Below are positions 28,545-58,754 of a stretch of 64,000 nt of DNA, one piece after another (within the stretch, counting starts at the first letter, position 1; every line of letters starts with the position of its first letter). The position numbers were made by a program, and so were the translations under genes. The stretch covers positions 186,001 to 250,000 of the forward strand of contig NZ_WTCR01000005.1 of the NCBI RefSeq assembly GCF_009795715.1, read 5' to 3'. The stretch comes from Labilibaculum euxinicum. GTDB taxonomy: Bacteria > Bacteroidota > Bacteroidia > Bacteroidales > Marinifilaceae. The notes under the pieces are model-generated. The model was given only the letters and a program-made list of their open reading frames with translations. It had not been told where the DNA came from and made no database searches.

Positions 28545-29480
28545 ATGAAAGAAGAAACATCAAACAACAGCAGACGAAAGTTCCTTAAAAGTGTTGGGAT
28601 TACCGTTGGCGCAGCAGGTGTTGTTAGTGGATTTTCTCTTCTTGGTGCAGCTAAAGCTGCAGCACAAGAACCTGGAGAAACAGTAAATCTGTTAACACAA
28701 GATGGACAACTCGTTCAAGTTGATAAAAATCAATTGCGCCCAACAGTAACAGGACCACTTACCGAATTGCAGAAAAGAGGACGTGAAGGTATTGCCGGAA
28801 AGTCGTTTGTAATGGTTATTGATCTTAGTAAATGTAGAAATGCCCGAAAATGTATGGCTGCATGTCAAAATCATCACCAATTAAGACCGGATCAACACCA
28901 TATTAATGTTCTTCAAATGCAGGATGCTGAACATACAGCTCCTTATTTTATGCCCAAACCTTGTCAGCATTGCGACAATCCTCCGTGTACCAAAGTTTGT
29001 CCGGTAGATGCTACTTTCAAACGTCAGGATGGAATTGTACTAATCGATAATGAACGATGTATTGGTTGTCGGTTTTGTATAGCAGCCTGTCCTTACTCTG
29101 CGCGTATTTTCCAATGGACAGAACCTAAGGATGCGGAAAAATATAAAAATCTCACCTACAATATCGAAGCTAACGTTCCTCAAAAGAAAGGTACAGTAAG
29201 TAAATGTTTATTTAGTGCCGACAGACTTCGCGAAAACAAACTTCCTTCCTGCGTTTCTTCCTGCCCGAATGGTGTTTACTATTTTGGAGATCAAAATGAA
29301 GATGCTGTTACCAACGGTACAACTCACGAAACAGTTCGTTTTTCTCAATTAATAAAAGAAAATGCGGGATATACGCTGATGCCTGAGTTAGGAACGAAAC
29401 CCCGCGTTTATTACCTGCCTCCAAAAAACAGAGCTTTTGAGTTTAATGGTGATCTTTTAAACGAAGAAAATCTTCATTAA
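28545..29480 (+). CDS. Tat-exported ferredoxin-type iron-sulfur subunit (PsrB/DsrO/NrfC-like)
   Basis: The 311-residue protein has a Tat signal (S9-R-R-K-F-L-K) followed by a hydrophobic stretch to about residue 40, so it should fold in the cytosol and work outside the inner membrane. Four cysteine groups follow the four-cluster pattern: C97/C103/C107, C140/C143/C148/C152, C172/C175/C178/C182, and C221/C236/C240. Groups I and IV each lack one ligand (A100 and S224), so the two outer clusters may be 3Fe-4S or absent. It heads an FeS-NrfD-cytochrome c gene set and should pass electrons from the membrane subunit to the cytochrome. No molybdenum catalytic subunit is encoded nearby. Confidence 0.9.
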   Translation: MKEETSNNSRRKFLKSVGITVGAAGVVSGFSLLGAAKAAAQEPGETVNLLTQDGQLVQVDKNQLRPTVTGPLTELQKRGREGIAGKSFVMVIDLSKCRNARKCMAACQNHHQLRPDQHHINVLQMQDAEHTAPYFMPKPCQHCDNPPCTKVCPVDATFKRQDGIVLIDNERCIGCRFCIAACPYSARIFQWTEPKDAEKYKNLTYNIEANVPQKKGTVSKCLFSADRLRENKLPSCVSSCPNGVYYFGDQNEDAVTNGTTHETVRFSQLIKENAGYTLMPELGTKPRVYYLPPKNRAFEFNGDLLNEENLH

Positions 29481-29547
29481 AGCATTGTTTCAATCATCAA
29501 TAAAAGAATAATAAACAGATTTTATTTGCCCTAAATAATTTAATCTT

Positions 29548-30888
29548 ATGAATGACTTACAAGAACAGAAAGAAACGACTCTTTCGTTTGAGAAAATAAA
29601 AAAAGACATTCTTCGTCCGATGCAAAACCACAAAGGTCTGGAACTTTGGATTGCGTTTCTAATAACAGTAATAAGTGTTTGTGCCTGGGCCTACTACGTA
29701 CAATTACGTGACGGATTGGGAGTTACCGGCATGCGCGATTACGTATCCTGGGGACTGTACATTGCCAACTTTGTATTTTTTGTTGCCGTGAGTTTGGTTG
29801 GAATGCTTATTTCGTCGATTCTGGGTTTGCTCCGAATCGATTGGATAACACCAATATCGAGAATTGCTGAGATAATAGCAGTTGCCTTTGTTGCCGTTGC
29901 CGGTCTGGTAATTATTATGGATATGGGACGTCCCGACAGAGTAGTTAATGTGCTTATCCATGGTCGTTTTCAATCTCCAATTCTTTGGGATATAACTGTA
30001 GTAACCACCTATCTGACAATAAGTCTTCTGTTACTGATTTTACCAATGATTCCAGATTTGGCGATCTGCAAAAATGAATTAAAAAAAGCATCTCCTTTAT
30101 TGAAAAAACTGTACAATATTCTTTCATTTGGTTATATCAACACTCCTGGGCAATACAAGCACTTACACAAAATGATCCGGACATTAATGGTTCTTATTGT
30201 TCCGGTAGGTTTGGCAATTCATACCGTAACCTCGTGGTTGTTTGCTGCAACCTTGCGAAATGGTTGGGATACTACAATTTTTGGCCCCTACTTCGTTGCA
30301 GGAGCATTTGTAGCAGGTTCGGCAGGATTAATCGTAGCTATGTATTTTTTCCGCGTTAGTTATAAACTGAAGGATTACATTACCGATGTTCAGTTCGATA
30401 ATATGGGAAAACTGATGGTGGCTGTATGTTTGGTATATTTATATTTCAATTTAAATGAGTTCTTGGTTCCCGGGTACAAAATGAAAACCGGAGATGATGT
30501 TCATTTAACGGAATTATTCGCCGGACATTGGGCAATCATGTTCTGGTCGTCTCAATTGCTGGGTAATGTGATTCCAATTATGCTATTGGTTACCAAAAAA
30601 TTCAGAAAGCCTTTTCCTATCATGATTATTTCATTATTTATTTTAGCAGGAGCCTGGATCAAAAGATATGTAATTGTTATCCCAACATTACTTCATCCTC
30701 ATTTACCCATTCAGAATGTACCACAAAACTTTGTACACTACTATCCTAGTGCGATAGAAATTTCTGTAACCGTTTTAAGTTTTGCTTTAGCACTCTTAAT
30801 CATCACCGTTTTATCAAAAATATTCCCGGTAGTTCCCATATGTGAAATTGCCGAACAAAAAGGAATCGAAGTGAAAATTGAAGCTTAA
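29548..30888 (+). CDS. NrfD/PsrC-family quinol-interacting membrane subunit
   Basis: The 446-residue protein is mostly membrane helices with the features of NrfD/PsrC/ActC proteins ('YVSWGLYIANFVFFVAVSLV', 'LGLLRIDWITPISRIAEIIA', 'DMGRPDRVVNVLIHGRFQSP', 'WDTTIFGPYFVAGAF'). It resembles ActC of alternative complex III (54.3 kb) in these blocks, including WG-x-Y-I-x-N-F and GRPxR. Such proteins oxidise or reduce quinol at the periplasmic side and hand electrons to the FeS subunit. It sits 67 bases after the ferredoxin gene and its end nearly touches the cytochrome gene. Confidence 0.92.
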   Translation: MNDLQEQKETTLSFEKIKKDILRPMQNHKGLELWIAFLITVISVCAWAYYVQLRDGLGVTGMRDYVSWGLYIANFVFFVAVSLVGMLISSILGLLRIDWITPISRIAEIIAVAFVAVAGLVIIMDMGRPDRVVNVLIHGRFQSPILWDITVVTTYLTISLLLLILPMIPDLAICKNELKKASPLLKKLYNILSFGYINTPGQYKHLHKMIRTLMVLIVPVGLAIHTVTSWLFAATLRNGWDTTIFGPYFVAGAFVAGSAGLIVAMYFFRVSYKLKDYITDVQFDNMGKLMVAVCLVYLYFNLNEFLVPGYKMKTGDDVHLTELFAGHWAIMFWSSQLLGNVIPIMLLVTKKFRKPFPIMIISLFILAGAWIKRYVIVIPTLLHPHLPIQNVPQNFVHYYPSAIEISVTVLSFALALLIITVLSKIFPVVPICEIAEQKGIEVKIEA

Positions 30889-30901
30889 AAACATGCAAAC
30901 A

Positions 30902-31822
30902 ATGAAAAATGCTATCAAAATAATTGCCAGTTTGTTTCTACTTTTTGTATTCACCGCCTCTGTTGTAAATGCCCAAAAATGGCAGGCACCAGTATTGTCG
31001 AAAAAGAAACAAAATCCTTACGAGGCCAGCACAAGAAATATTAGTTCTGGTAAAAAGATTTACAATATTAATTGCAAGTCCTGTCATGGTGATGCTACCA
31101 TGGGAAACATGTTACCTCTTCAACCAGTTGCTCCTTCCGATTTAGGATCGCAGGCATTTTTGATCCAAACAGATGGAGAAATCTATTACAAGGTTAACAA
31201 AGGCAATGGCGCAATGCCCACTTTCGAAAAAACTTTAAGTGACGAGGACAAGTGGATGGTTATTACCTATCTGCGCTCTTTCGATCAGAATAAAAAGGAA
31301 AGCAAGAAAATTGTGGAAGTGAAAAATCCTGAAGTAACTGATGTGAAACTTCTTTTAGACATCAATAATGAGAACAAAAGAATATTAGCTAACCTAACGG
31401 GTGTTACTGCAAAAGGTGATCGTGTTGCCTTGCAAGGTATTGAACTAAGCGTAAAGGTGAAAAGAAACTTTGGCTATTTAGATATCTCGGGCGACGATGC
31501 ATACACAAACGAAAAAGGGGAAGTTAATGTTCAATTTCCGGAAGATTTACCCGGCGATCGTGAAGGACATGTGAATCTTTTAGTTAAAGTTACCGACGAT
31601 GCCTACTATGGAGAAGTGATTGTTGATAGAATTGCCAGCCTTGGCATACCCACCAACCCGGTAAATCCTTTGGATGAAAGAGCTATGTGGGGAACCCGGG
31701 CAAATGCTCCTATATGGATTATTTTCAGCTATGTTGGTGGAGTCATCTGCATTTGGGGAGTTATCTTTCTGGTACTATTTCAACTAATTCAACTGCCTAA
31801 ACTCGCAAAAAACAAAGAATAA
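30902..31822 (+). CDS. Membrane-anchored monoheme cytochrome c with an Ig-like domain
   Basis: The 306-residue protein has a signal peptide (to NAQ, residue 25), one heme-binding C58-x2-C61-H62 site (CKSCHG) with 'GAMPTFEKTLSDEDKW' as the usual Met-ligand region, and a beta-sandwich-like domain (about 125-240). One C-terminal membrane helix lies at about 274-297 (IWIIFSYVGGVICIWGVIFL). ATG 30902 gives the cleanest signal peptide; ATG 30893 is possible. It follows the NrfD gene by 13 bases. It should carry electrons from the FeS/NrfD pair to periplasmic acceptors such as the cbb3 oxidase encoded next. Confidence 0.88.
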   Translation: MKNAIKIIASLFLLFVFTASVVNAQKWQAPVLSKKKQNPYEASTRNISSGKKIYNINCKSCHGDATMGNMLPLQPVAPSDLGSQAFLIQTDGEIYYKVNKGNGAMPTFEKTLSDEDKWMVITYLRSFDQNKKESKKIVEVKNPEVTDVKLLLDINNENKRILANLTGVTAKGDRVALQGIELSVKVKRNFGYLDISGDDAYTNEKGEVNVQFPEDLPGDREGHVNLLVKVTDDAYYGEVIVDRIASLGIPTNPVNPLDERAMWGTRANAPIWIIFSYVGGVICIWGVIFLVLFQLIQLPKLAKNKE

Positions 31823-31957: not shown

Positions 31958-31998
31958 ATCAAATAATCTAAGACTGTAAGGTCTGCAAGTTGGTGAAA

Positions 31999-34470
31999 AT
32001 GCAGGAAGAAACAAAAAAACACATTTGTGTACACTGTGGCGACGACTGTGGTTCACATCCCGTAATTTGGGATGAGAAGCCATTTTGCTGCAATGGTTGT
32101 TCTACTGTGTATCAGATTTTGCACGAAAATGAACTTTGTACCTACTACGATTTTGAATCAAACCCTGGAATTAAAATTGAAGCCGGAAAATACAAAGAGA
32201 AATTTGCTTTTTTAGATGACAACGAAATTGCAGAGCAACTTTATGAATTCGCAGAAGGAAATATCAGAAAAATAACTCTTTATATCCCAAGCATACATTG
32301 TAGTTCTTGTATTTGGTTGTTGGAACATCTCAATATTTTAAATCAGGGAGTTATTAAGTCGATGGTCAATTTCGTTAAGAAAGAAGTGGCCGTTACATTT
32401 AATTCCGATGAAATCTCAATTAGAGAATTGGCTGAATTACTTTCTTCCATTCATTATATCCCTGAGATTACTCTTGATAAATTACAATTAAAACAAAATG
32501 AAGAAGTAAACAAGAGTCTTCTTTACAAAATCGGTATTGCCGGATTTTGTTTTGGAAACATCATGCTTTTGAGCTTGCCCGAATACGTTCCGGGTCATGA
32601 GTATTTGGAAACTCATTTCAAAGAATTTTTTGGGATGATGAATTTCTTCCTTGTTTTACCTGTTTTCTTTTACAGCGGAAGTGATTATCTGCTATCTGCC
32701 GGAAAGGCAATAAAACACAAATTCATTAATATAGATGTTCCTATTTCGATGGGAATACTGATGCTCTTTATTCAAAGTAGTATTGAGATTTTCAGCGGTT
32801 CGGGAGCTGGTTATATGGATTCCCTTACCGGATTAATTTTCTTTCTCTTAATAGGAAAGTGGTATCAAAACAGAACCTATCAGGCACTCTCGTTCGAACG
32901 GGATTATCGATCTTACTTTCCGGTTGCCGTAAGTAAAATGGAAAACGGAATTGAGATAAGTACTCCTATTGAAAAGCTGGAGAAAGGCGACATCATATTA
33001 ATCCGTAATCAGGAATTGATTCCTGCCGATGGTATTTTAATGAAAGGAGAAGCTCAGATTGATTACAGTTTTGTTACCGGTGAATCGAAACCTGTATTTA
33101 AAGAAAGCGGCGACGCTGTTTTTGCAGGAGGAAAACAGATGGGAAGTGCCATTGAACTGACCATCGAAAAAGATGTAATTCAAAGTCGTTTGACCCAATT
33201 GTGGAATCAATTTGAAGGCGAGGATTCTTCAAATACCAAACTAAACTCATTAATCGATCAGATCAGCAAATATTTCACCATTGTAATTATTGCAATTGGA
33301 CTGTTTGCAGGAATCTACTGGCTGCTAAATGATTCAAGCAAAGCTGTTTTTGCCTTTACTTCGGTTCTGATTGTTGCTTGTCCGTGCGCACTGGCTCTCT
33401 CTGCTCCTTTCGCTATGGGAAACACCATGCGATTGATGGGAAGAATGGGAATCTATCTAAAAAGCTCGGCAGTGGTCGAAAAATTAAATTCAATCACCAC
33501 CATCGTTTTTGATAAAACAGGAACGATAACACAAGCCGATGAGGTAAAGGTTAAATTTCATGGAGATGCATTAAGTGATGATGACAAAATCGCAGTAAAA
33601 TCATTAACCAGACATTCTACTCATGTTCTAAGTTCTACTTTGTATGAGTATTACAAGAGCATTCCTCCCGAAACAGTTGTTGACTATACTGAATTGCCAT
33701 CAATGGGAATTTCGGGTACAGTTAATGGCCGGAAAATTAAGCTGGGCTCTGCAAAATTTATTTACGAAGGAAAAACAGAAACCAGTTCTTTAAACACTGA
33801 AGTTTACCTTTCGGCAGATGGAAAAATAAAGGGACATTTCTCTTTGAGTAATCAATACAGAACCGGTTTGTCAGAATTAATAAACGGACTGGCTCCTAAA
33901 TACGATTTGCACATTTTATCGGGTGATAATGATTCGGAAATGGAAAATCTGAAACAGATATTTCCAGCAACATCAATTATCCGCTTCAATCAGTCGCCAA
34001 ATGATAAATTGGAATACATCAACAATTTAAAGAAACAAAACAAATACGTTTTAATGATTGGCGATGGATTAAATGATGCCGGAGCCTTAAAAACAAGCGA
34101 TGTTGGTATTTCAATTGCCGATGACATTTACCATTTTTCGCCTGCGTGCGATGCTATTTTGGAAGCTTCAAAATTTCAAGAATTAAAGTACTTCCTAAAA
34201 ATATCAGCAAAAAGTGTTTGGATAGTAAAACTAAGTTTCATACTCTCTTTTCTTTACAATTTATTTGGATTGTATTTCGCAGTACAAGGAATCTTATCGC
34301 CTATTGTTGCAGCTCTGCTAATGCCAATCAGTTCCATTTCGGTGGTGGCTTTTGCAACTTTTACAACCAATTACATTGCTAAATCGAAAGAGACAAATAA
34401 TAAAACCAAATCGAATAATAAAGAAGCAAAAACATCTGTTTTTCTAAAAAAATCGGTTCAACTAAATTAA
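31999..34470 (+). CDS. ccoI: Copper-translocating P1B-type ATPase of the cbb3 system
   Basis: CcoI/FixI moves copper outward for assembly of the CuB centre of cbb3 oxidase. The 823-residue protein starts with a Cys-rich zinc-ribbon-like segment (CVHCGDDCG, CCNGC), then a metal-binding domain with 'SIHCSSCIWLLE' and membrane helices. The transport motif is CPCALALS, the phosphorylation motif DKTGTIT, and the hinge GDGLNDAGAL. ATG 31999 is chosen over TTG 31990/GTG 31993. ccoS follows after 7 bases. Confidence 0.95.
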   Translation: MQEETKKHICVHCGDDCGSHPVIWDEKPFCCNGCSTVYQILHENELCTYYDFESNPGIKIEAGKYKEKFAFLDDNEIAEQLYEFAEGNIRKITLYIPSIHCSSCIWLLEHLNILNQGVIKSMVNFVKKEVAVTFNSDEISIRELAELLSSIHYIPEITLDKLQLKQNEEVNKSLLYKIGIAGFCFGNIMLLSLPEYVPGHEYLETHFKEFFGMMNFFLVLPVFFYSGSDYLLSAGKAIKHKFINIDVPISMGILMLFIQSSIEIFSGSGAGYMDSLTGLIFFLLIGKWYQNRTYQALSFERDYRSYFPVAVSKMENGIEISTPIEKLEKGDIILIRNQELIPADGILMKGEAQIDYSFVTGESKPVFKESGDAVFAGGKQMGSAIELTIEKDVIQSRLTQLWNQFEGEDSSNTKLNSLIDQISKYFTIVIIAIGLFAGIYWLLNDSSKAVFAFTSVLIVACPCALALSAPFAMGNTMRLMGRMGIYLKSSAVVEKLNSITTIVFDKTGTITQADEVKVKFHGDALSDDDKIAVKSLTRHSTHVLSSTLYEYYKSIPPETVVDYTELPSMGISGTVNGRKIKLGSAKFIYEGKTETSSLNTEVYLSADGKIKGHFSLSNQYRTGLSELINGLAPKYDLHILSGDNDSEMENLKQIFPATSIIRFNQSPNDKLEYINNLKKQNKYVLMIGDGLNDAGALKTSDVGISIADDIYHFSPACDAILEASKFQELKYFLKISAKSVWIVKLSFILSFLYNLFGLYFAVQGILSPIVAALLMPISSISVVAFATFTTNYIAKSKETNNKTKSNNKEAKTSVFLKKSVQLN

Positions 34471-34691: not shown

Positions 34692-36821
34692 ATGGAAACA
34701 CAACATTTTTCGTACGATAACAAAATCGTGAAATTTTTCGCCTACGCAACCATTCTTTGGGGAGTAGTTGGAATGTTGGTAGGGCTTTTGGCAGCGCTGC
34801 AATTGGCATTCCCGATTTTTAATTTCAATCTGGCTTATACCTCTTTTGGTAGAATTCGTCCGATTCACACCAATGCAGTAATTTTTGCATTTGTTGGGAA
34901 TGGAATATTTACCGCAGTTTATTATTCACTTCAGCGCTTATTGAAAGCCAGAATGTTTAATGACAGACTTAGTTGGATCCATTTCTGGGGATGGCAGGCC
35001 ATAATTGTTTCGGCGGCTGTCACTTTTGTTTTAGGAATCACTACCAGTAAAGAATATGCTGAGTTGGAATGGCCGATCGATATTGCCATTACCATTATTT
35101 GGGTTGTGTTTGGCTGGAACATGTTTGGTACCATTCTAAGAAGAAGAGCCGATCACCTTTATGTTGCCATATGGTTTTATATCGCAACTTTTGTAACAGT
35201 TGCCGTTCTTCATATAGGTAATTCAATTTCCCTGCCTTACAGCTGGATTCAGTCATATCCTGTTTATGCCGGTGTGCAGGATGCTTTGGTGCAGTGGTGG
35301 TATGGTCACAATGCAGTTGCATTTTTCCTGACTACGCCGTATTTAGGTTTAATGTACTATTTCCTGCCAAAAGCAGCCAATCGTCCGGTGTATTCCTACC
35401 GACTTTCGATTATTCACTTTTGGGCATTGGTTTTCCTTTATATCTGGGCCGGACCTCATCACTTACTTTATACCTCGTTACCGGATTGGGCGCAATCTTT
35501 AGGTGTTGTTTTCTCAATCATGTTACTTGCTCCTTCGTGGGGAGGAATGTTTAACGGACTGCTTACACTTCGCGGTGCCTGGGATAAAGTCCGCGACAGT
35601 GCAACTCTAAAATTTATGGTGGTTGCTGTAACTTGTTACGGAATGTCGACCTTTGAAGGCCCGATGATGTCTCTTAAATGGGTAAATTCACTGACACACT
35701 ATACCGACTGGACAATTGCTCACGTTCACATTGGAGCAATGGGCTGGAATGGCTTCCTTACTTTTGGAATGTTGTACTACTTGTTCCCAAAAATGTGGAA
35801 CACCAAACTGTACTCTGAAAAATTAGCCAATGCACACTTCTGGGTTGGAACATTAGGTATGATTTTTTATGCGCTTCCATTGTATTGGGGTGCTATTGTT
35901 CAAACCCTAATGTGGAAAGAATTCACTCCGGACGGATTGTTAGCTTATCCTAATTTCTTAGAAACTGTCACTCAGATTCTGCCAATGTATCACGTAAGAG
36001 TTTTAGGCGGACTTCTTTACTTCTCCGGACTGTTCTTAATGGTTTATAATCTACTAAAAACTGCCGCATCCGGTAAATGCATAGACAATGAAGAAGCTTC
36101 GGCACCTGCTATTGTTACCGATACAAAACGCAGCAATAGTGAAGGTTTACACCGTTGGTTAGAGAGAAAACCTGTTCAGTTTATGATTTTGGCTACAGTT
36201 GCAATCTTAATTGGCGGTGCATTCGAAATCATACCAACGTACCTGATCAAATCAAATATCCCGACTATCGAGAGTGTAAAACCTTATACTCCTCTTGAGT
36301 TGCAGGGTAGAGATATTTATATCCGTGAAGGCTGTAATACTTGTCACTCCCAAATGGTTCGTCCGTTCCGTTCAGAAACAGAACGATATGGTGAGTATTC
36401 AAAAGCCGGCGAATCAGTTTACGATCATCCGCACTTGTGGGGATCGAAACGTACTGGTCCGGATTTGGCCCGCGAAGGTGTTCCCGGTGGAAAAATGTAC
36501 AAAACTAATGTTTGGCATTTTAACCATATGCTGGATCCGCAAAAAATGAATGCTCAATCCATTATGCCCAAATATCCCTGGCTGATAAAAGACGTATTGG
36601 ATACTTCATCAACTCCGGCAAAAATTCGGGCGATGACCACTTTAGGTGTGCCATATGCTGAAGGATACGATCTAATTGCCAATGACGATTTGAAGAAACA
36701 AGCAGAAGAAATTGCTGCCGATCTTAAAAAATCGGGCATTGAAGTAGCTAGTGATAAAGAAATATTAGCTGTAATAGCTTACCTGCAGCGTTTGGGTAGA
36801 GATATTTCGGTTCAAAAATAG
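34692..36821 (+). CDS. ccoNO: cbb3 cytochrome c oxidase, fused subunits I and II (CcoN-CcoO)
   Basis: Residues 1-~462 are CcoN, the heme b/heme b3-CuB catalytic subunit, with 'RPIHTNAVIFAFVGNG', 'WWYGHNAVAFFLT' and 'WTIAHVHIGAMGWNG' giving the histidine ligands. Residues ~490-709 are CcoO, with its own membrane helix (~495-515) and one heme c site C548-N-T-C551-H552 followed by QMVRPFR. The fusion is usual in Bacteroidota. The enzyme reduces oxygen at high affinity with cytochrome c electrons. It is followed by a palindromic spacer and ccoQ. Confidence 0.96.
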   Translation: METQHFSYDNKIVKFFAYATILWGVVGMLVGLLAALQLAFPIFNFNLAYTSFGRIRPIHTNAVIFAFVGNGIFTAVYYSLQRLLKARMFNDRLSWIHFWGWQAIIVSAAVTFVLGITTSKEYAELEWPIDIAITIIWVVFGWNMFGTILRRRADHLYVAIWFYIATFVTVAVLHIGNSISLPYSWIQSYPVYAGVQDALVQWWYGHNAVAFFLTTPYLGLMYYFLPKAANRPVYSYRLSIIHFWALVFLYIWAGPHHLLYTSLPDWAQSLGVVFSIMLLAPSWGGMFNGLLTLRGAWDKVRDSATLKFMVVAVTCYGMSTFEGPMMSLKWVNSLTHYTDWTIAHVHIGAMGWNGFLTFGMLYYLFPKMWNTKLYSEKLANAHFWVGTLGMIFYALPLYWGAIVQTLMWKEFTPDGLLAYPNFLETVTQILPMYHVRVLGGLLYFSGLFLMVYNLLKTAASGKCIDNEEASAPAIVTDTKRSNSEGLHRWLERKPVQFMILATVAILIGGAFEIIPTYLIKSNIPTIESVKPYTPLELQGRDIYIREGCNTCHSQMVRPFRSETERYGEYSKAGESVYDHPHLWGSKRTGPDLAREGVPGGKMYKTNVWHFNHMLDPQKMNAQSIMPKYPWLIKDVLDTSSTPAKIRAMTTLGVPYAEGYDLIANDDLKKQAEEIAADLKKSGIEVASDKEILAVIAYLQRLGRDISVQK

Positions 36822-37232: not shown

Positions 37233-37799
37233 ATGGAGAAAAAAGATAAATTCTTAGAAGAAAACGAGCATCTGATCAGCGATCATGATTATGATGGGAT
37301 TAGAGAATTAAACAATCCAATGCCAACTTGGTGGCGTTACTTGTTCTATATCACAATTGTTTTTGCCGCAGTATACATGTTTCGTTATCATGTTTTTGGT
37401 GATGATTTACAAATTGCAGAGTACAATAAGGAAATGGCTCTTGCCGAAGCAAATAAACCAAAAACTGCTTTTGATGAGAATGCTCTTGTTTTAATGACAG
37501 CGTCGGCAGATTTGGACAATGGAAAAGCCATCTACGACAAAAACTGCATTGCTTGTCATGGATCATTGGGAGAAGGTAATGCAATTGGGCCTAACCTTAC
37601 CGATAAATATTGGTTGAATGGCGGCAGTCTTAAAGATGTTTATCAAATCATTAAAGTAGGAAAACCTATGAAGGGAATGTTAGCCTGGCAAAATCAACTA
37701 TCGCCTGAACAAATGCTGCAGGTTGCCAGTTATATAATGGGACTGCAGGGAACAAATCCTCCTAATGCAAAAGAAGCTCAGGGTGAATTGGTTGAATAA
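37233..37799 (+). CDS. ccoP: cbb3 oxidase subunit III (CcoP), monoheme form
   Basis: The 188-residue protein has the CcoP N-terminal domain ('DGIRELNNPMPTWWRYLFYI') with one helix, then a single heme c domain with C105-I-A-C108-H109. 'GPNLTDKYWLNGG' and 'MKGMLAWQNQLSPEQM' complete the cytochrome fold. Proteobacterial CcoP carries two hemes, so this is a shorter monoheme variant. It accepts electrons for CcoNO. ccoG follows after 41 bases. Confidence 0.93.
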   Translation: MEKKDKFLEENEHLISDHDYDGIRELNNPMPTWWRYLFYITIVFAAVYMFRYHVFGDDLQIAEYNKEMALAEANKPKTAFDENALVLMTASADLDNGKAIYDKNCIACHGSLGEGNAIGPNLTDKYWLNGGSLKDVYQIIKVGKPMKGMLAWQNQLSPEQMLQVASYIMGLQGTNPPNAKEAQGELVE

Positions 37800-37840: not shown

Positions 37841-39238
37841 ATGGCTCCTAAAAACCCATATACCGGCTATCGTGACCAACTTGCGACTCTTAATGAGACA
37901 GGAAAACGCAGATGGGTATACGCACAAAAACCAAAAGGGAAATTATATAACTATCGGAATATTGTTAGCTATACCTTACTGTTTTTGTTATTTGCCATTC
38001 CTTTTGTGAAGTTAAATGGTGAGCCATTTTTGATGTTGAATATTTTAGAGCGAAAATTCATTTTATTTGGCGTCCATTTTTGGCCTCAGGATTTTCATCT
38101 CTTCCTGTATTCCATGATTACTCTTTTTGTATTTGTGGTGCTATTTACCGTTAGCTATGGTCGAATATGGTGTGGTTGGACCTGTCCGCAAACTGTTTTT
38201 TTAGAATTTATTTTCAGAAAAATTGAGTACTTAATTGAAGGAAACCCAAGCCAACAGCGCAAATTGGATTCCCAACCAATGAATTTTACTAAATTCTGGA
38301 AAAAGAGTTTGAAAATCATTCTTTTTTATGCAATCTGCTTTTTAATTACAAACGCCTTTTTATCCTACATTATTGGAATTGACCAGTTGCTGGAAATAAT
38401 GAAAGCTCCAATATCCGAACATAGCGTTGGATTTACTGTGGCAGTTTTGTTCTCGGGCGTTATGTTCTTTGTTTTTACAAAATTGCGCGAACAGGTATGC
38501 TCGATGATTTGCCCTTATGGGAGATTGCAGGGTGTACTATTAGACTCCAATTCGATAGTTGTTGCTTACGATTACAAGCGAGGAGAAGAAAGAGCTCCGC
38601 TGGAGGCTGGCGAAGATCGGGTAAAAGATGGCAAAGGAGATTGTATTGACTGTTATCAGTGCGTTGATGTTTGTCCAACCGGAATTGATGTGCGTGATGG
38701 GACTCAATTGGAATGCATCAACTGTACTGCGTGCATAGATGAATGCAATTCTGTAATGGAGTGGATAGGTAAACCGAAAGGTTTAATTCGATTCGATTCT
38801 GAAAAAAATATCGCCGAAGGCAAAAAACAAAAATGGCCTGCCCGTAAAATTGCTTACACCATAGTTCTGTGCATTCTGCTGGGAATTGTTGCTGCTTTAT
38901 TTGCTTCTCGAAGCGATTTGGAAGCCGTTATCCTGCGAACTCCAGGCTTAATGTATCAACCTCAGGAAGGTGGGATTAGTAATATGTACAGCTTTAAAGT
39001 TGTTAACAAAACGGTTGCCGAAGTTCCAATTCATTTTAAAATAATGAATCACGAAGGAGTTATTAAAGTAATTGGAGAAGAATTAAAAGCCAAAGCAAGT
39101 TCAATAAAAGAAGGTGTATTCTTCGCAATTTTACCACAAAAAGAAATCACAAGCGATAACATTCCAATTACCATTGGTGTGTATGCCGATAAACGATTAA
39201 TAGAAGAAGTTAAACTAACTTTTGTAGGACCAAACTAA
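37841..39238 (+). CDS. ccoG: cbb3 oxidase accessory protein CcoG (polyferredoxin)
   Basis: CcoG/FixG/RdxA is a membrane iron-sulfur protein that reduces copper during cbb3 assembly. The 465-residue protein has several membrane helices, 'WCGWTCPQTVFLEFIFRKIE', 'CSMICPYGRLQG', two ferredoxin motifs (CIDCYQCVDVCP and CINCTACIDEC), and a C-terminal Ig-like domain (about 360-465). The length and order are normal. Confidence 0.96.
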   Translation: MAPKNPYTGYRDQLATLNETGKRRWVYAQKPKGKLYNYRNIVSYTLLFLLFAIPFVKLNGEPFLMLNILERKFILFGVHFWPQDFHLFLYSMITLFVFVVLFTVSYGRIWCGWTCPQTVFLEFIFRKIEYLIEGNPSQQRKLDSQPMNFTKFWKKSLKIILFYAICFLITNAFLSYIIGIDQLLEIMKAPISEHSVGFTVAVLFSGVMFFVFTKLREQVCSMICPYGRLQGVLLDSNSIVVAYDYKRGEERAPLEAGEDRVKDGKGDCIDCYQCVDVCPTGIDVRDGTQLECINCTACIDECNSVMEWIGKPKGLIRFDSEKNIAEGKKQKWPARKIAYTIVLCILLGIVAALFASRSDLEAVILRTPGLMYQPQEGGISNMYSFKVVNKTVAEVPIHFKIMNHEGVIKVIGEELKAKASSIKEGVFFAILPQKEITSDNIPITIGVYADKRLIEEVKLTFVGPN

Positions 39239-39274: not shown

Positions 39275-39721
39275 ATGAAAAAGATGAGTTGGGGGACAAA
39301 ACTAGCAATAGGAGCTTCGATATATGTTATCGGGATTCTTACTTTTGTTGCATTTAGTACAACGCAAAAAATCAATTTAGTATCAAAAGATTACTATCCT
39401 AAAGAGGTGGAATATCAACAACAAATTGATAAATTAAATAATGCCAAAAAATTAAATGAGACGATCCTTATCTCGCAGGAAAACGGGAAATTACAATTCC
39501 AATTTCCGGCCAATATGCACGATCTGGTAAAAGGCGAAATCATATTTTATCGTCCTGCCGATTATGAATCTGATATTAAAACTGCCATTGATCTTGACGA
39601 AAACGGATTGCAGGAACTTAATACAGATCAACTTTTAAAAGGCATGTACACCGTCAAAATAGATTGGGAACACGATGGCATTGGATATTATAAAGAAGAG
39701 GCTGTTTACTTGAATAAATAA
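39275..39721 (+). CDS. ccoH: FixH/CcoH-family protein
   Basis: The 148-residue protein has an N-terminal membrane helix (about 9-28) and the family feature 'NLVSKDYYPKEVEYQQQIDK' after it, then a beta-rich periplasmic domain. FixH/CcoH is needed for assembly or stability of cbb3 oxidase. It lies 36 bases after ccoG, and a palindromic element begins immediately after its stop. Confidence 0.9.
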   Translation: MKKMSWGTKLAIGASIYVIGILTFVAFSTTQKINLVSKDYYPKEVEYQQQIDKLNNAKKLNETILISQENGKLQFQFPANMHDLVKGEIIFYRPADYESDIKTAIDLDENGLQELNTDQLLKGMYTVKIDWEHDGIGYYKEEAVYLNK

Positions 39722-43589: not shown

Positions 43590-45200
43590 ATGACTGATAC
43601 CGTAATTCAAAACCATGAACCAAATTACCTTGAATATCAAGGACGGTACAAAGGAATATTTTCATGGATTTTCTCTACAGATCACAAACGAATTGGCTTG
43701 TTGTATTTATACAGTATGCTGGTGCTTTTTAGTGTTGCAGCTATTCTGGGTCTGTTAATGAAAATAGAGCTGATTGCACCCGGAAAAACCATAATGGATG
43801 CCCAGACTTACAACAGCTTTTTCACCCTTCACGGGATAACCATGATTTTTTTAATTGTAGTTCCCGGCTTACCTGCTGTGTTTGGAAATTTTTTCCTGCC
43901 TCTGATGATTGGAGCGAAAGATGTGGCATTTCCCAAGCTCAACCTTTTGTCGTGGTGGATCTATATTTTAGGTGCGACCATTGCTCTTTCGGCTCAGTTT
44001 TTTGGTGACGGACCTCCAGATACCGGCTGGACATTTTACGCTCCCTACAGTTTTAGAACAGGAACCAATATGCTGCCGGCCGTGACTGGTGCATTTATTT
44101 TAGGGTTCTCTTCCATAGCAACCGGACTCAACTTTATCGTAACTATTCACAGAATGAGAGCACCAGGTATGACTTGGATGAAAATGCCTCTTTTTCCATG
44201 GGCTATATACGGAACAAGCTGGATTCAAGTACTGGCAACACCAATTGTAGGAATTACATTATTAATGATTGTACTGGAACGCACCCTGCAAATCGGATTT
44301 TTCGATCCTGCTTTGGGCGGCGATCCAATCTTATATCAGCATTTATTCTGGATTTACTCCCACCCTGCCGTTTACATCATGATACTGCCGGCGATGGGTG
44401 TGATCTCAGAGATTATTCCAACATTCGCGCGAAAAACCATTTTCGGTTACAAAGCAATTGTTGTGTCTACTTTAGCAATTGCATTTGTAGGCTACTTTGT
44501 TTGGGGTCATCACATGTTTACATCAGGAATGAGTGGAACAGCCCTGTATACATTTTCGATTCTTACATTTTTGGTAGCCATTCCCAGTGCCATTAAAATA
44601 TTCAATTGGGTAGCTACCCTTCATAAAGCTTCCATCGATATTCAAACTCCTTTCTTGTGGGCTCTTTGCTTTCTTTTTGTTTTCATGATCGGAGGATTAT
44701 CAGGAATGGTACTGGGTGCCTTATCGGCCAACGTTCATTTGCACGATACGGCATTTGTGGTTGCTCACTTTCACTTTATTGTTTTCGGTGGTACCGGATA
44801 TGCATTTTTTGGAGCTCTGCATTACTGGTACCCTAAAATGTTTGGCAGAATGTACGACAAAGGCTGGGCAAATATAGGTTTGGCAGTATTCTTCACAGGC
44901 TTTAACACTCTTTACCTTCCTATGTTTTATTTAGGAATGATTGGAATGCCCCGCAGGTATTACGACTATGTTGAAGAATTTCACGGACCAAATATTGTAT
45001 CCTCGTTTGGAGCCATGCTCATGATTTCCGGCCTGGTTATTATCATCACCAATTTGGTTCGCTCGGCCCGAAAAGGAGAAATTGCAGAAGCCGATCCCTG
45101 GAAAGGAAAAACACTTGAATGGACAATTGCCAGTCCTCCGCCTTTGGAGAATTTTGCGGAAATACCAGTAGTAACCAAACAGCCATACGACTATGAGTAA
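43590..45200 (+). CDS. ctaD: caa3-type cytochrome c oxidase subunit I (A2-type)
   Basis: The 536-residue protein is the heme-copper catalytic subunit. It has 'FFTLHGITMIFLIVVPGLPA' with a heme ligand His, 'WIYSHPAVYIMILPAMGVIS' with the CuB His and cross-linked Tyr, 'WGHHMFTSG' with two CuB His, and 'VVAHFHFIVFGG' with the heme ligands. YSHPAVYI replaces GHPEVYI, which places it in the A2 group that uses a Tyr-Ser pair in place of the K-/D-channel glutamate. Subunit III overlaps its end by 8 bases. Confidence 0.95.
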   Translation: MTDTVIQNHEPNYLEYQGRYKGIFSWIFSTDHKRIGLLYLYSMLVLFSVAAILGLLMKIELIAPGKTIMDAQTYNSFFTLHGITMIFLIVVPGLPAVFGNFFLPLMIGAKDVAFPKLNLLSWWIYILGATIALSAQFFGDGPPDTGWTFYAPYSFRTGTNMLPAVTGAFILGFSSIATGLNFIVTIHRMRAPGMTWMKMPLFPWAIYGTSWIQVLATPIVGITLLMIVLERTLQIGFFDPALGGDPILYQHLFWIYSHPAVYIMILPAMGVISEIIPTFARKTIFGYKAIVVSTLAIAFVGYFVWGHHMFTSGMSGTALYTFSILTFLVAIPSAIKIFNWVATLHKASIDIQTPFLWALCFLFVFMIGGLSGMVLGALSANVHLHDTAFVVAHFHFIVFGGTGYAFFGALHYWYPKMFGRMYDKGWANIGLAVFFTGFNTLYLPMFYLGMIGMPRRYYDYVEEFHGPNIVSSFGAMLMISGLVIIITNLVRSARKGEIAEADPWKGKTLEWTIASPPPLENFAEIPVVTKQPYDYE

Positions 45201-45807
45201 TCACACACACATTGATGAACACCGGGACGATGAAGGTGCTAAAACGGGAATGTGGATTTTCATATTTACTGAGCTGCTGCTTTTTGGCGGATTGTTTATT
45301 GTCTATTCGGTATACCGTTACTTAAACCCGGCGGCTTTTCATTTGGCCGCCGAAGAACTGGATACTTTTATTGGCACAGCAAATACTGTAATTCTACTTA
45401 TAAGCAGTATGACAATTGCCATGTCTATAAGTGCCATACAATCTCAGAATAAAAAACTTACGTTGATATTAATGGGCATTACCATTTTACTGGCTGTGGC
45501 ATTTATGGTGAATAAATATTTTGAATGGAGTGGGAAAATAGCCCATGGTATATACCCTGGGAGTCCAACGCTGATGGACGCAAGTCAGGGAGAAATCCTG
45601 TTTTTTGGTTTGTACTATGCCATGACGGGACTTCACGCATTACACATTGTTATAGGTGTAGCATTCATTGCTTACGTAATGAGACTGGTGGTTAAAGATG
45701 AGGTACAACACGACAACTTCGCAATACTCGAAAACAGTGGGTTGTATTGGCATTTAGTCGATTTAATCTGGATTTTCCTTTTCCCCTTATTCTACCTAAT
45801 CACTTAA
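45193..45807 (+). CDS. ctaE: Cytochrome c oxidase subunit III
   Basis: The 204-residue protein has about five membrane helices and the family blocks 'GMWIFIFTELLLFGGLFIVY', 'GLYYAMTGLHALHIVIG' and 'GLYWHLVDLIWIFLFPLFY'. It stabilises subunit I and proton uptake. Its ATG overlaps the end of ctaD by 8 bases, suggesting translational coupling; subunit IV follows after 10 bases. Confidence 0.94.
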   Translation: MSNHTHIDEHRDDEGAKTGMWIFIFTELLLFGGLFIVYSVYRYLNPAAFHLAAEELDTFIGTANTVILLISSMTIAMSISAIQSQNKKLTLILMGITILLAVAFMVNKYFEWSGKIAHGIYPGSPTLMDASQGEILFFGLYYAMTGLHALHIVIGVAFIAYVMRLVVKDEVQHDNFAILENSGLYWHLVDLIWIFLFPLFYLIT

Positions 45808-45817
45808 TTGTACTGTT

Positions 45818-46105
45818 ATGGAAAAAGAACAACATACCCACATTGTAAAATACAAAACCTATGTATTTGTTTTGATTGCCTTGCTTCTCATGACCTTTAC
45901 ATCAGTGGCCATAACCAGTCTTAATTTAGGTCCGTACACAGTTTCAGCTGCTTTAGTGCTGGCTGGTATTAAATCCCTATTGGTATTACTGATTTTTATG
46001 CATCTTAAATTCGATAAAAAGTTCTATGCCATCATGGTAGCCAGCGTATTTTTACTGCTGGGCTGTGTTATTTTTATTACATTCTTAGACTACTTATACC
46101 GATAG
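45818..46105 (+). CDS. ctaF: Cytochrome c oxidase subunit IV
   Basis: The 95-residue protein has three hydrophobic segments and the prokaryotic COX4 pattern 'HIVKYKTYVFVLIALLLMTF' with 'VLAGIKSLLVLLIFMHLKFD'. It is an accessory subunit of the caa3 oxidase, 10 bases after subunit III and 3 before subunit II. Confidence 0.9.
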   Translation: MEKEQHTHIVKYKTYVFVLIALLLMTFTSVAITSLNLGPYTVSAALVLAGIKSLLVLLIFMHLKFDKKFYAIMVASVFLLLGCVIFITFLDYLYR

Positions 46106-46108
46106 CTT

Positions 46109-47050
46109 ATGACTTCTAAAGCAATACCCGATGCTTCTAATTTTGTGAAAGGTGTAGATACTTCTTTCGAGGTGATATTGGGAATCATTTTCTTTTTCCT
46201 CATCGCCATCACAGCTACCATGATATACTTTGTATTTCGATATCGAAAAGAAAGAAATCCGGTCGCTACCCAAATCCACGGAAGTGTTTCCCTTGAGATA
46301 CTTTGGACGGTTATTCCCACCCTATTGGTGATGGTGATGTTCTATTACGGCTGGATGGGCTACAAACCAATGAAAGAAGTTCCTGACGATGCTTTTGTAA
46401 TTAAAAGTGTTGGCAGAATGTGGAACTGGCAATTCGAATATGAAAACGGCAAAAGAACAGATACGCTGTATGTTCCTTTAAATCGTGCAGTAAAATTAGA
46501 TTTGAAGGCTCTGGATGTAATACATAGTTTATACATTCCTTCGTTTAGACTAAAGCAGGATGTTGTTCCCGGAAAAAAACAAATGATGTGGTTCATACCC
46601 GGCCGCGAAGGAGAATTCGATTTGTTTTGCACAGAATATTGTGGCTTGAGACATTCCTCTATGCAAACATCTGTGATTGTAATGCCGCAGGACAAATTCG
46701 ACAGCTGGTATATTGACACAACTGCAACCGCTCCACTTATTTCGGATAAACCCGGGGCTTTGGGCTTAGTCATTGTAAAGAAGAATGGTTGTTTGGCCTG
46801 TCACTCGCTTGATGGATCGAAGTTGGTTGGCCCAAGCTGGAAAGGTTTATTCGGCAAAACAGAAACCGTTATTACTAAGGGGCAAACAAGAGAAATAAAT
46901 GTCGACACCGCCTATGTAATCAACTCCATTTACAATCCTAACGATGATATTGTAAAGGGTTACAGCAAAGGCTTGATGCTATCCTATAAAAATGAATTAA
47001 CAGAAGATGATATCGGCGAAATAATTGAATTTATGAAGACGCTTAAATAA
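46109..47050 (+). CDS. ctaC: caa3 oxidase subunit II with fused cytochrome c domain
   Basis: The 313-residue protein has two N-terminal membrane helices and a cupredoxin domain with the CuA ligands H139, C174, C178, H182 and M185 (CTEYCGLRHSSM). A C-terminal cytochrome c has C228-L-A-C231-H232. The fusion makes this a caa3 enzyme able to take electrons directly from a partner complex. The subunit order I-III-IV-II is unlike the usual II-I-III. There is no predicted lipobox. Confidence 0.95.
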   Translation: MTSKAIPDASNFVKGVDTSFEVILGIIFFFLIAITATMIYFVFRYRKERNPVATQIHGSVSLEILWTVIPTLLVMVMFYYGWMGYKPMKEVPDDAFVIKSVGRMWNWQFEYENGKRTDTLYVPLNRAVKLDLKALDVIHSLYIPSFRLKQDVVPGKKQMMWFIPGREGEFDLFCTEYCGLRHSSMQTSVIVMPQDKFDSWYIDTTATAPLISDKPGALGLVIVKKNGCLACHSLDGSKLVGPSWKGLFGKTETVITKGQTREINVDTAYVINSIYNPNDDIVKGYSKGLMLSYKNELTEDDIGEIIEFMKTLK

Positions 47051-51935: not shown

Positions 51936-52502
51936 CTACTTTTGTGCTTGCAGATCCACTTTTATGTACTCAATAATTTTCCATCTGTCGGCTTGTTTAA
52001 TTTGAGCACCATGAGCACCCATAACCCCAAAGCCAACGGTTATTACATGAAAAATCTCACCGCGGGGAGTTGTTTTCATCACATCAGTAATCAAACTTCT
52101 AGGCTGAAACGGGTATTTTCCGCTCGTGAACAGATATCCTTGTCCATCTCCCTTTTCACCATGACAGTGGATGCAATAAATCCCGAAAAGTTTCTTGCCT
52201 CTCTGCACATCGTCAGCGGTCATTTCGTTGGGATTAAAAATATTTTCGCCCGCCCAAATCCGTTCTTCCTGTGTTTTTTCAAAATGGTAAGGAATCATTT
52301 CTCTGGGAATAGTACCCTCAACCGGCAAACGCAAACTCGAACCGTCTTCGAAATTAGGATTCGCAGAATAAGGTTCAAAAGCCCGCGATTCAACCATATC
52401 CGGAAAATAGGAATAACCCGGATGGTTGCGGTCTTTATCGCAGGATGCCAACAAAACCACAACTAGCAATAAAGCACTACTATAGGATACGAATTTTTGC
52501 AT
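51936..52502 (-). CDS. actE: Alternative complex III monoheme cytochrome c lipoprotein (ActE)
   Basis: The 188-residue lipoprotein (LLAS-C21) has one heme site C110-I-H-C113-H114 and the ActE marks 'FPDMVESRAFEPYSANPNF' and 'LPVEGTIPREMIPYHF'. In alternative complex III it passes electrons from ActA toward the oxidase. ATG 52502 is chosen for its clean lipoprotein signal; ATG 52523 is an in-frame alternative. It is last in the operon, after actF, an order different from the standard act operon. Confidence 0.92.
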   Translation of the reverse strand: MQKFVSYSSALLLVVVLLASCDKDRNHPGYSYFPDMVESRAFEPYSANPNFEDGSSLRLPVEGTIPREMIPYHFEKTQEERIWAGENIFNPNEMTADDVQRGKKLFGIYCIHCHGEKGDGQGYLFTSGKYPFQPRSLITDVMKTTPRGEIFHVITVGFGVMGAHGAQIKQADRWKIIEYIKVDLQAQK

Positions 52503-52526
52503 AACAATTTCTTTTTGGGTCATGAA

Positions 52527-53696
52527 TCAGGTTTCGTAATGAAAACTCTCTTCGAGTAAAGGATCATTTTTACTTAACAGCGGCGCTTTAGCCAAAGAGC
52601 TTAAAACAACAAACAAGAAGCCTACCAGATACAAGCACACAAAGCCAATTTCCGTTAAGCCAATTTGCGCCGATTTCCCGATTGTTCCGGGAATTACCAG
52701 TAAATAAATATTCAACCATTGACCAATCAAGACTATCACCGCCATAATAGATAACCACTTTAAATTTCGTTTCGAATTCCGGGTCATTAATCCCAGAAAT
52801 GGAATTACAAAATTAAGAACCAAAATGGTGAAAAACAGAATGGTATGATCGTGCAGTCTGGGTGCAAAATAGGCCGTTTCTTCAGGAATGTGACTGTACC
52901 AGATTAACAGATACTGAGAGAACCACAAATACATCCAAAAAATACTGAATGCAAACAGGTATTTTCCCATGTCGTGAATGTGTTCTTTGCTGATGAATTC
53001 CAAATGGCCTTTCCATTTCAGAAAACGGATAAAAAGGATAATGGCAGCAATGCCAATCTCAAAAAGACCAATAAAAATAAACCATCCGTAAAGGGTGCTG
53101 TACCAATGTGCATCAATAGACATTAACCAATCCCAGCTCATGGCCGAACTAGATACGGCAAAGAAAACCATGAATAAAGCGCCCAGTAACTTTCCCTTTT
53201 TATAGTATTTGATATCTGTAGATAAATCCTGCTGCAGGGAATTTTTTCGCAGCAAGCGCGTCAGCCATATCCAAACACCAAAATAAACCACCATTCGGAT
53301 GAAAAAGAACGGAATATTTAAATAGGCCGCTTTCCCCTCCAATACCGGATCGTGCAATCCCTCATGGGACCAATGATAGATATCATGCATACCGAAGTAC
53401 AAAAGGAACATCAAAATAGCTGATACCGGCAGAAATGATATCAAGGCCTCGGGAATGCGCTGCAATGCGGTATGCCATCCTGAATAAGCTATTTTATGCA
53501 ATGCCTGAAATACGCCTCCAAACAGAGCAATGAACAGGAAAAACAGGTTGTTAATTAAAAAATTTGTCCAAAACCTCTGACCGTTGGGGGCTTCTATTAA
53601 ATACCCAAGCAGAAGCAATAGAATTCCGAATCCCCCTACAGCGAGCAGTGCAATTTGTGTTTTTTGGGAAAATGTATAATTCTTGTCCATCACCAT
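52527..53696 (-). CDS. actF: Alternative complex III membrane subunit ActF
   Basis: The 389-residue protein has about ten membrane helices and the ActF (quinol:cytochrome c oxidoreductase quinone-binding subunit 2) blocks 'HKIAYSGWHTALQRIPEALI' and 'AMSWDWLMSIDAHWYSTLYG'. It is the second large membrane subunit, related to ActC. It lies between actD (14 bases) and actE. Confidence 0.93.
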   Translation of the reverse strand: MVMDKNYTFSQKTQIALLAVGGFGILLLLLGYLIEAPNGQRFWTNFLINNLFFLFIALFGGVFQALHKIAYSGWHTALQRIPEALISFLPVSAILMFLLYFGMHDIYHWSHEGLHDPVLEGKAAYLNIPFFFIRMVVYFGVWIWLTRLLRKNSLQQDLSTDIKYYKKGKLLGALFMVFFAVSSSAMSWDWLMSIDAHWYSTLYGWFIFIGLFEIGIAAIILFIRFLKWKGHLEFISKEHIHDMGKYLFAFSIFWMYLWFSQYLLIWYSHIPEETAYFAPRLHDHTILFFTILVLNFVIPFLGLMTRNSKRNLKWLSIMAVIVLIGQWLNIYLLVIPGTIGKSAQIGLTEIGFVCLYLVGFLFVVLSSLAKAPLLSKNDPLLEESFHYET

Positions 53697-53710
53697 TTGG
53701 TTTATGCGGT

Positions 53711-54232
53711 TTACAATTCAATCTCCTTAACCTGTATGTTCATAGCCTCTTCTTTTTCAAGAATCCCTTTCACAACATCATCCTGACTTCCTGCCTCATC
53801 CAGATCTACAATAATCACAAAACGGTCATCGGTACTTCGTTCGTCGTGAATCACAGTCCTGGCTCCGGGTCCGAGTTTCGAGCGAATAAAGAATGCTATT
53901 GCCATTCCAAAAGAGGCAAACAGAACCGTCAGTTCAAAAGTGATCGGGATAAAAGAAGGAATCGCAAAATGCGGCTTTCCTCCAATAAACAATGGATAAT
54001 CGACAGTAAATGCCCAGGTTTGAAAGCCAAAAGCTACAGCCAAACCAATACCTCCGCAAATAAATGCCACAGTTGGCAAATTGGATCGTTTGTAACCCAA
54101 AGCAGTATCCAGGCCATGAACCGGAAAAGGAGTCAAAACATCCTGAATGGAAACATCCTGAGCCCGCAATTCCTTGGTAGCACGAAGAAGATTTTCCTCA
54201 TCTTCAAAATAGGCTGAAATATATCTTTTCAT
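53711..54232 (-). CDS. actD: Alternative complex III subunit ActD (DUF3341)
   Basis: The 173-residue protein has a cytosolic N-terminal domain ('AYFEDEENLLRATKELRAQD', 'DVLTPFPVHGLDTALGYKRS') and two membrane helices (about 57-78 and 100-122), the DUF3341 layout. It is a structural membrane subunit of the complex. It lies 91 bases after actC and directly before actF. Confidence 0.93.
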   Translation of the reverse strand: MKRYISAYFEDEENLLRATKELRAQDVSIQDVLTPFPVHGLDTALGYKRSNLPTVAFICGGIGLAVAFGFQTWAFTVDYPLFIGGKPHFAIPSFIPITFELTVLFASFGMAIAFFIRSKLGPGARTVIHDERSTDDRFVIIVDLDEAGSQDDVVKGILEKEEAMNIQVKEIEL

Positions 54233-54323
54233 ATGTCTATAATTTGTTTTTCAATTGCCCTATGGAACTCGCCAGTATAGTCATTCTCATGTGCGAGAAC
54301 TTTTTCTCATGCTCGTTTCATGA

Positions 54324-55697: not shown

Positions 55698-55707
55698 AAG
55701 CGTGGTT

Positions 55708-58692: not shown

Positions 58693-58754
58693 AGATAAAC
58701 GGTTATCAATAGGTAAAATGCAATGCAACAGGGCAATAATTGGCTTTTACAATT

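Follow-up and report, generated by a model that had tools for sequence, protein, structure and literature searches.

A quinol module of the NrfD/PsrC type combines an NrfD-family membrane protein with an adjacent iron-sulfur (FeS) protein of up to four clusters, and described systems with such parts include alternative complex III (ACIII), NrfABCD, DsrMKJOP, and PsrABC with the other complex iron-sulfur molybdoenzymes. Here we report a variant of these modules in a stretch of 64,000 nucleotides from Labilibaculum euxinicum (contig NZ_WTCR01000005.1, positions 186,001 to 250,000; hereafter the window). Three genes for an FeS protein, an NrfD protein and a one-heme membrane-anchored cytochrome c (hereafter the trio) lie there in this order, all on the + strand and directly 5' of the genes of a cbb3 oxidase, an enzyme with high affinity for oxygen. 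From its anatomy and its distribution we predict, as the likely reading, a menaquinol:cytochrome c oxidoreductase with three subunits and a minimal counterpart of ACIII, although it is not an ACIII by the defining features of that complex, nor a bc1.

The likeness to ACIII consists in an ActC-like membrane subunit (TM-score about 0.8), an FeS subunit, a one-heme cytochrome with a chain E-like fold and adjacency to caa3 oxidases. The trio has, however, no ActA, no molybdopterin-like ActB domain, no ActD and no ActF, and its FeS subunit loses cysteines in groups I and IV, whereas the ActB of the window has a threonine in group III. NrfCD of NrfABCD, and the NrfCD of Melioribacter roseus that stands without a catalytic subunit, also consist of FeS and NrfD proteins and pass quinol electrons to c-type cytochromes, but the trio brings its own anchored one-heme cytochrome c in place of NrfA or NrfB and adjoins heme-copper oxidases. 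The nearest NCBIfam models, DsrO and DsrP, point to DsrJOP of DsrMKJOP; these matches are below the cut-offs, no DsrMK-like neighbour was seen beside the trio of the window, and DsrJ has three hemes, according to passages of PMC8076601, compared to one in the trio cytochrome. PsrABC and its relatives share the FeS and NrfD membrane module, but the trio cluster is without a catalytic molybdenum subunit and continues with cco genes. Cytochrome bc1 has only the proposed overall reaction in common with the trio, which contains neither cytochrome b nor a Rieske protein and whose subunits are unrelated.

Anatomy of the three subunits

The ORF at 28545..29480 (+ strand), together with Pfam and NCBIfam models, indicates a Tat-exported, NrfC/DsrO-like iron-sulfur subunit of 311 aa with a twin-arginine signal. 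It is followed by the NrfD/ActC-like membrane subunit (29548..30888, +; 446 aa; PF03916 with 129 bits vs. a cut-off of 25.8) and by the anchored cytochrome c (30902..31822, +), which has one CxxCH motif, a signal peptide and a C-terminal helix. The ORF of the latter spans 30878-31822 and opens with TTG, while the alignment of relatives favours the ATG at 30902 as the start; the intergenic gaps are 67 bases and, if the cytochrome begins at this ATG, 13 bases. An earlier note on this DNA had described these three genes in tight order before cbb3, with no molybdopterin subunit and no bc1 genes, and in this it was correct: all three are as it stated, no molybdopterin gene adjoins the trio in the ORF list or in a model scan, and PF00033 (cytochrome b) has no match in the 5.06 Mb genome.

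Among solved structures, the trio NrfD is nearest to ActC in both sequence and fold. In the Protein Data Bank, its profile matched at E <= 1e-5 only one ActF and four distinct ActC sequences, the latter with 215-227 bits. The structure predicted by AlphaFold (mean pLDDT 76) has ten long helices besides the N-terminal one, and its comparison with four ActC chains gave TM-scores of 0.80-0.82. The residues D125, S143, D148 and R373 are invariant in 125 of 125 core NrfD relatives and align with the ActC of the window, where D125 faces a histidine. According to passages of PMC8076601, quinol binding and gating in NrfD-type proteins involve particular Ser, Asp and Arg residues. As judged by alignment, these would be S143, D148 and R373, and the position in transmembrane helix 2 (TMH2) that is acidic or histidine would be D125. 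The serine of QrcD that matches S143 is essential, according to passages of PMC13059093. The position matched to Asp253 of ActC is a leucine in all 125 core NrfDs. NCBIfam scores are 151.1 bits to the DsrP model (cut-off 350) and 71 bits to the QrcD model (cut-off 570). In a wider, more distant group, 10 of 11 NrfDs carry a cysteine in place of D125.

The FeS protein, at 311 aa, is without the molybdopterin-like domain of ActB. Its best solved match is 2vpw_B, and the model scores are 184.2 bits for DsrO (cut-off 200), 113 for NrfC (cut-off 377.6) and 123 for QrcC (cut-off 400). Cysteine groups II and III are complete, in the window as in 104 of 104 core rows, and one cysteine is missing in each of groups I and IV. 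All 97 pattern-matched rows (7 unmatched) have Ala, Val, Leu or Glu in place of the second cysteine of group I; that of group IV is Ser in 93 of 98 and Cys in 5 of 98 (6 rows unmatched). In the ActB of the window, read from the sequence, groups I and IV are complete and the threonine stands in group III. With the cluster order of NarH as the guide to position relative to the membrane, the altered clusters would lie far from the membrane, at the electron exit.

The model of the cytochrome (mean pLDDT 91.5) consists of a heme domain, a β-rich middle domain and one long C-terminal helix. The best fold matches of the heme domain include cytochrome c552 and chain E of three ACIII structures (ranks 1, 2, 8 and 9), while the β-rich middle domain gave no trusted fold match. 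Of 104 core cytochromes, 96 contain one heme motif, and the ORF picked for the other 8 contains none. In three loci (L042, L043 and L045) the heme domain and the anchored middle domain are encoded as separate genes, and the L045 version adjoins a six-heme cytochrome with an NrfH-like part.

Distribution and partner enzymes

The earlier note had taken the trio as the complex III of cbb3 and overlooked an ACIII set in the same window (51936..60011, - strand; strand order ActA-ActB-ActC-ActD-ActF-ActE), about 20 kb downstream of the trio on the opposite strand. ActD was called by its own Pfam family, ActB by 684 bits to 6btm_B and ActA by 181 bits to 6btm_A; ActF has no Pfam match and is named by place. 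Between trio and ACIII lies a caa3 oxidase cluster (43590..47050, +) with CtaD, CtaE, a small membrane gene and a CtaC with COX2 and cytochrome c domains, of which CtaE and the small membrane gene are named by place. The genome of the window combines two candidates for the cytochrome c reductase with two oxidases that take electrons from cytochrome c; of these oxidases, cbb3 is the one beside the trio. Because ACIII is present, the trio is not the sole candidate here, and the idea of a cbb3 without any other reductase was dropped. Three NrfD-family matches were found in this genome in total, namely the trio NrfD, ActC and one in what we take to be a PsrABC-like cluster (L001, G000:C3), which continues with two membrane genes, presumably YeeE-like.

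Does ACIII accompany the trio elsewhere? Four profile searches were combined over an order sample of 247 genomes that are at least 90% complete, the window's own included. All score cut-offs are our reading of the match tables: NrfD profile scores above 500 were classed as core trio, 300-440 as a second group and up to 291 as ActC-like; PF00115 scores above 410 bits as aa3-type and of about 338-406 as cbb3-type oxidases, the lower matches, taken to be mostly NO reductase-like, being left out; and PF00033 scores above 120 bits as bc-type cytochrome b, with 17 genomes with weaker rows (30-62 bits, most ORFs about 900-930 aa) left uncounted. Three of the 87 trio-type copies have in-frame stops within the match (G575, G462 and G490) and were counted as they stand, and the copy in G048 is truncated by the contig end. 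The core trio is found in 57 genomes, with 61 copies. A high-scoring heme-copper oxidase is present in 88 of the 247 genomes, and the trio accompanies it in 52 of these 88, vs. 5 of the 159 without one. ActC-like matches occur in 41 of the 88, and the number for ActD is the same. Nine of the oxidase genomes have both trio and ACIII, 43 the trio only, 32 ACIII only and 4 neither, a tendency to mutual exclusion with a Fisher p of about 1e-11 (kinship not corrected). Two of those with neither (G587 and G617) contain quinol-type oxidases without CuA or heme motif (L194 and L195); the other two are drafts 91-92% complete, namely G549, in which the contig starts inside SCO so that a trio could precede it, and G044 (91%).

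In 40 of the 88 genomes, from 30 families, an oxidase and the trio are present and no ActB, ActC, ActD or bc-type cytochrome b was found, the searches for ActB and for NapC/NrfH covering 61 genomes, made up of these 40, the 4 without trio or ACIII and 17 from the genus and family of the window. The oxidases of the 40 are aa3-type in 28 and cbb3-type in 28, with both in 16. No PF00033 match at all was obtained in 37 of them (29 families), among which G612 is a single contig of 4.8 Mb, 99% complete, with the trio just before caa3 (L160); 8 of the 40 gave no NapC/NrfH-family match. A bc-type cytochrome b occurs in three more genomes that have the trio and lack ACIII (G599, G600 and G667).

Within the window's family, compared over 30 of 34 genus and family genomes (G006, G023, G027 and G033, less than 85% complete, were left out), the trio is present in 15 of 16 genomes with a high-scoring oxidase and in 0 of the 14 others; the exception, G019, has ACIII and aa3 and no trio. 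All 15 have trio and cbb3 on one contig, about 4 kb apart, so that the tie to cbb3 seen by the earlier note holds among the sampled members of this family. Cytochrome b matches were found in 7 of the 16. In the two of these Marinifilaceae that were inspected, G014 (L159) and G004 (L161), cytochrome b, a Rieske protein and an eight-heme cytochrome c stand in a row, and G014, with trio and cbb3 and without ACIII, is for this reason not a clean case. The trio is uncommon in the phylum at large: a sample of 392 genomes (own included) added 9 others above 560 bits, with some match in 307 of 392, mostly in the ActC-like E-value range. These nine have two or three matches each, an ActC-like place being listed for at least seven, and neither caa3 nor a fused CcoNO was found in the neighbourhoods of their copies, to which L172 and L179, described below, belong. 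In these samples the trio without ACIII is a trait of the order Bacteroidales and not of the phylum.

Gene neighbourhoods were compared in 80 named loci, the best 80 of 588 confirmed relatives, in which nearest kin are over-represented. The order FeS-NrfD-cytochrome c on one strand is kept in 71 of the 80, which argues against a chance arrangement, and the FeS gene lies just 5' of NrfD in 74. The next four to five same-strand genes include cbb3 in 34 loci, SCO and caa3 in 24 and napA in 2; a further 11 show none of these partners, and in 9 the contig ends within 3.5 kb. A divergent SCO-ctaDE set is also found upstream in 13 of the 34 cbb3 loci. Two further trios (L044 and L142) precede a diheme cytochrome with NarG and NarH. 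For L036, NCBIfam and Pfam models confirmed NapA, NapG, NapH and NapB, and for L044 they confirmed NarG and NarH; the other partner genes were labelled by similarity to the genes of L036, L044 and the window. Every CtaC found up to 12 kb from a trio and on its strand has CuA and heme motifs (27/27), and every full-length CcoNO near a trio has a heme motif in its CcoO half (37/37); the trait common to the partner enzymes is that they draw electrons from c-type hemes. Of the 61 core copies in the order sample, 32 lie no more than 12 kb from an oxidase gene. ActA, ActD and ActF were found neither beside the trio of the window nor in the neighbourhoods of the 80 loci; an exception is L155 (G556:C9), where the trio stands directly before an actABCDEF set. 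In Marinilabilia rubra the trio precedes caa3 (L130) and no ActC-like match was obtained at E <= 1e-40 (G671), while in Draconibacterium orientale and four Maribellus genomes the trio lies between the two oxidases, with an ActC-like gene elsewhere. The Nap-linked loci L036, L124 and L146 show no four-heme gene, and L127 has two a few genes on; passages of PMC9765461 list napC in two Marinifilaceae metagenome-assembled genomes.

A tree of 141 NrfDs was calculated with FastTree only and came with a long-branch warning, its root and deep order being unsure. The 125 core NrfD rows form one supported group, separate from the two ActC sequences. The Nap copies (7) and the Nar copies (2) form one group each, and the cbb3 and caa3 copies fall into several, with unlinked copies between. 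Four partner states among 75 labelled rows need 4 changes, compared to a possible minimum of 3, and partner switches therefore look few.

Proposed reaction and competing explanations

We infer the electron path of the trio, its direction, the formation of a complex and the acceptor as follows. Quinol would be oxidised at a P-side site in the NrfD subunit, and electrons would travel via the clusters of the periplasmic FeS subunit to the heme in the anchored cytochrome c. From there they may reach the c-type hemes of the terminal enzyme encoded next to the trio. The acceptor here would be CcoO/CcoP of cbb3, and elsewhere the cytochrome c domain of CtaC, NapB or the diheme cytochrome beside NarGH. 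In the genome of the window, the trio probably serves cbb3, alongside ACIII; in other genomes the best reading is that it would serve caa3, Nap or Nar. With less assurance, though still on the favourable side, we suggest that the trio is a third, three-subunit complex III that lacks heme b, a Rieske centre and a molybdopterin-like scaffold and that in many Bacteroidales has replaced ACIII as the sole reductase and acts as a plug-in for cbb3, caa3, Nap and Nar. The earlier note had called it a stripped-down complex III dedicated to cbb3. The reductase half of this proposal is supported by the ActC-like NrfD, by the quinol residues, by the position next to oxidases that cytochrome c feeds and by 43 of 52 trio-bearing oxidase genomes without ACIII, but the dedication did not hold: trios next to cco genes make up 34 of 80 named loci, against 24 with caa3, 2 with Nap and the two further trios with NarGH. 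That note would have counted against its proposal a widespread trio that accompanies a catalytic reductase gene instead of cbb3. No such pattern was found; the partners are cbb3, caa3 and, less often, cytochrome-fed nitrate reductases. The literature searched, largely without subscription journals, gave no description of the trio beside an oxidase.

Several observations weigh against a menaquinol:cytochrome c oxidoreductase. Passages of PMC13059093 report that QrcD variants at the residues matching D125 and R373 are still functional, and these two positions consequently weigh less as evidence. The best NCBIfam models for the NrfD and FeS proteins are DsrP and DsrO, both below cut-offs. The presence of ACIII means that the trio is not required by logic alone in the genome of the window. 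For 29 of the 61 core copies of the order sample, the contig contains no oxidase gene at a distance of up to 12 kb (some contigs being only 4-6 kb long), and some copies adjoin housekeeping genes. In the second, more distant group, this range is free of oxidase genes around all 26 copies. Five trio genomes are without a high-scoring oxidase (G050, G056, G461, G481 and G491). Among the 40 trio-only genomes, 3, all of them among those with weaker PF00033 rows, contain a cytochrome b-multiheme c fusion of about 910 aa (G054/L198, G615/L199 and G627/L200), which could be another quinol outlet, and 32 contain NapC/NrfH-family proteins, so that a quinol by-path is possible in most of the 40. Moreover, most genomes are drafts, and absences in them fall short of proof.

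Could the trio feed something other than an oxidase? It might be an NrfCD-type quinol dehydrogenase for another periplasmic acceptor, such as metal oxides or a nitrite or sulfur reductase, with ACIII feeding both oxidases; its place before cbb3 would then reflect that both are wanted at low oxygen. This is the strongest of the rival explanations, and ACIII and caa3 are indeed both in the window. Passages of PMC5760507 report that Labilibaculum strains reduce Fe(III), and one also Mn(IV), and passages of PMC3534657 state that NrfCD without a catalytic subunit feeds multiheme cytochromes. The 29 core copies away from an oxidase gene fit this view, as does the distant trio group, in which genes for a seven-heme cytochrome and for a protein of about 205 aa precede the set of FeS, NrfD and anchor (L187, L189, L190, L192 and L193). 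We nevertheless regard it as improbable: in many families the trio is linked to cbb3 and caa3, it and ACIII tend not to occur together, and 40 genomes contain no known type of cytochrome c reductase.

A role as an add-on to ACIII or to an oxidase supercomplex, with no reductase activity of its own, appears very unlikely. It would agree with the trio of L155 (G556) before its act genes and with the 9 of 52 trio-bearing oxidase genomes that also have ACIII, but not with the 43 that lack it, and the trio has its own quinol-site residues and heme. A reverse reaction, with quinone reduced by periplasmic cytochromes as in Qrc, a quinone reductase according to passages of PMC6303296, is the least credible of all. 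It would agree with the weak QrcC and QrcD matches (123 and 71 bits vs. cut-offs of 400 and 570), but the trio precedes oxygen and nitrate reductases, which need electrons, and electron transfer from menaquinol to cytochrome c is downhill. Two further candidates were dropped: a broken molybdoenzyme operon, given that the three genes are kept in 71 of 80 named loci with invariant quinol-site residues, and identity with DsrJOP, the DsrO and DsrP matches being below curated cut-offs.

On paper, the 40 sampled cytochrome c oxidase genomes that have neither known kind of reductase show a gap in the respiratory chain. If the trio is a menaquinol:cytochrome c oxidoreductase, it would close this gap as a very simple complex III, distinct from both known kinds. 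It would also illustrate a way in which an ActC-like quinol module, joined by a cytochrome, may have developed into ACIII. The trio is also a small system for asking whether NrfD-type proteins pump protons, a question left open in passages of PMC8076601, PMC6303296 and PMC13059093.

The cbb3 locus and minor observations

Downstream of the trio, all on the + strand, lie the cbb3 genes. A CcoI-like copper P-type ATPase for cbb3 assembly (31990..34470; the ORF opens with TTG, and the ATG at 31999 is the likelier start) is followed by a CcoN-CcoO fusion with the catalytic and one-heme subunits (34692..36821; PRK14485 with 1239.6 bits, cut-off 1080). Next come a CcoP-like subunit with a FixP_N domain and one CxxCH motif (37233..37799; TIGR00782 with 110.8 bits, below the cut-off of 180), the assembly factor CcoG, called by domain models (37841..39238), and a gene which from its sequence and position we take to be a CcoH-like assembly factor (39275..39721). 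The divergent genes upstream are, from their sequence alone, presumably cydAB. No FNR-like TTGA-N6-TCAA box was found upstream of the trio in the window and seven relatives.

The trio NrfD of the window is 99% identical to that of Labilibaculum manganireducens (L071). Just 3' of the trio cytochrome, a convergent ORF of 43 aa with one helix (31826-31957, - strand) was noticed, and a similar protein is seen in L054, L055 and L071 and was not found in the other seven loci tried. In L172 (G204:C8), a core trio is accompanied a few genes downstream by a small cytochrome c and a COX1-family protein of 469 aa (perhaps a cytochrome c-fed NO reductase), and in L179 a P-type ATPase lies near the trio. 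In L181 and L184, a single cluster contains a trio-like NrfD along with one ActA-like and two ActB-like genes, and may represent a step between ACIII and modules of simpler make-up.

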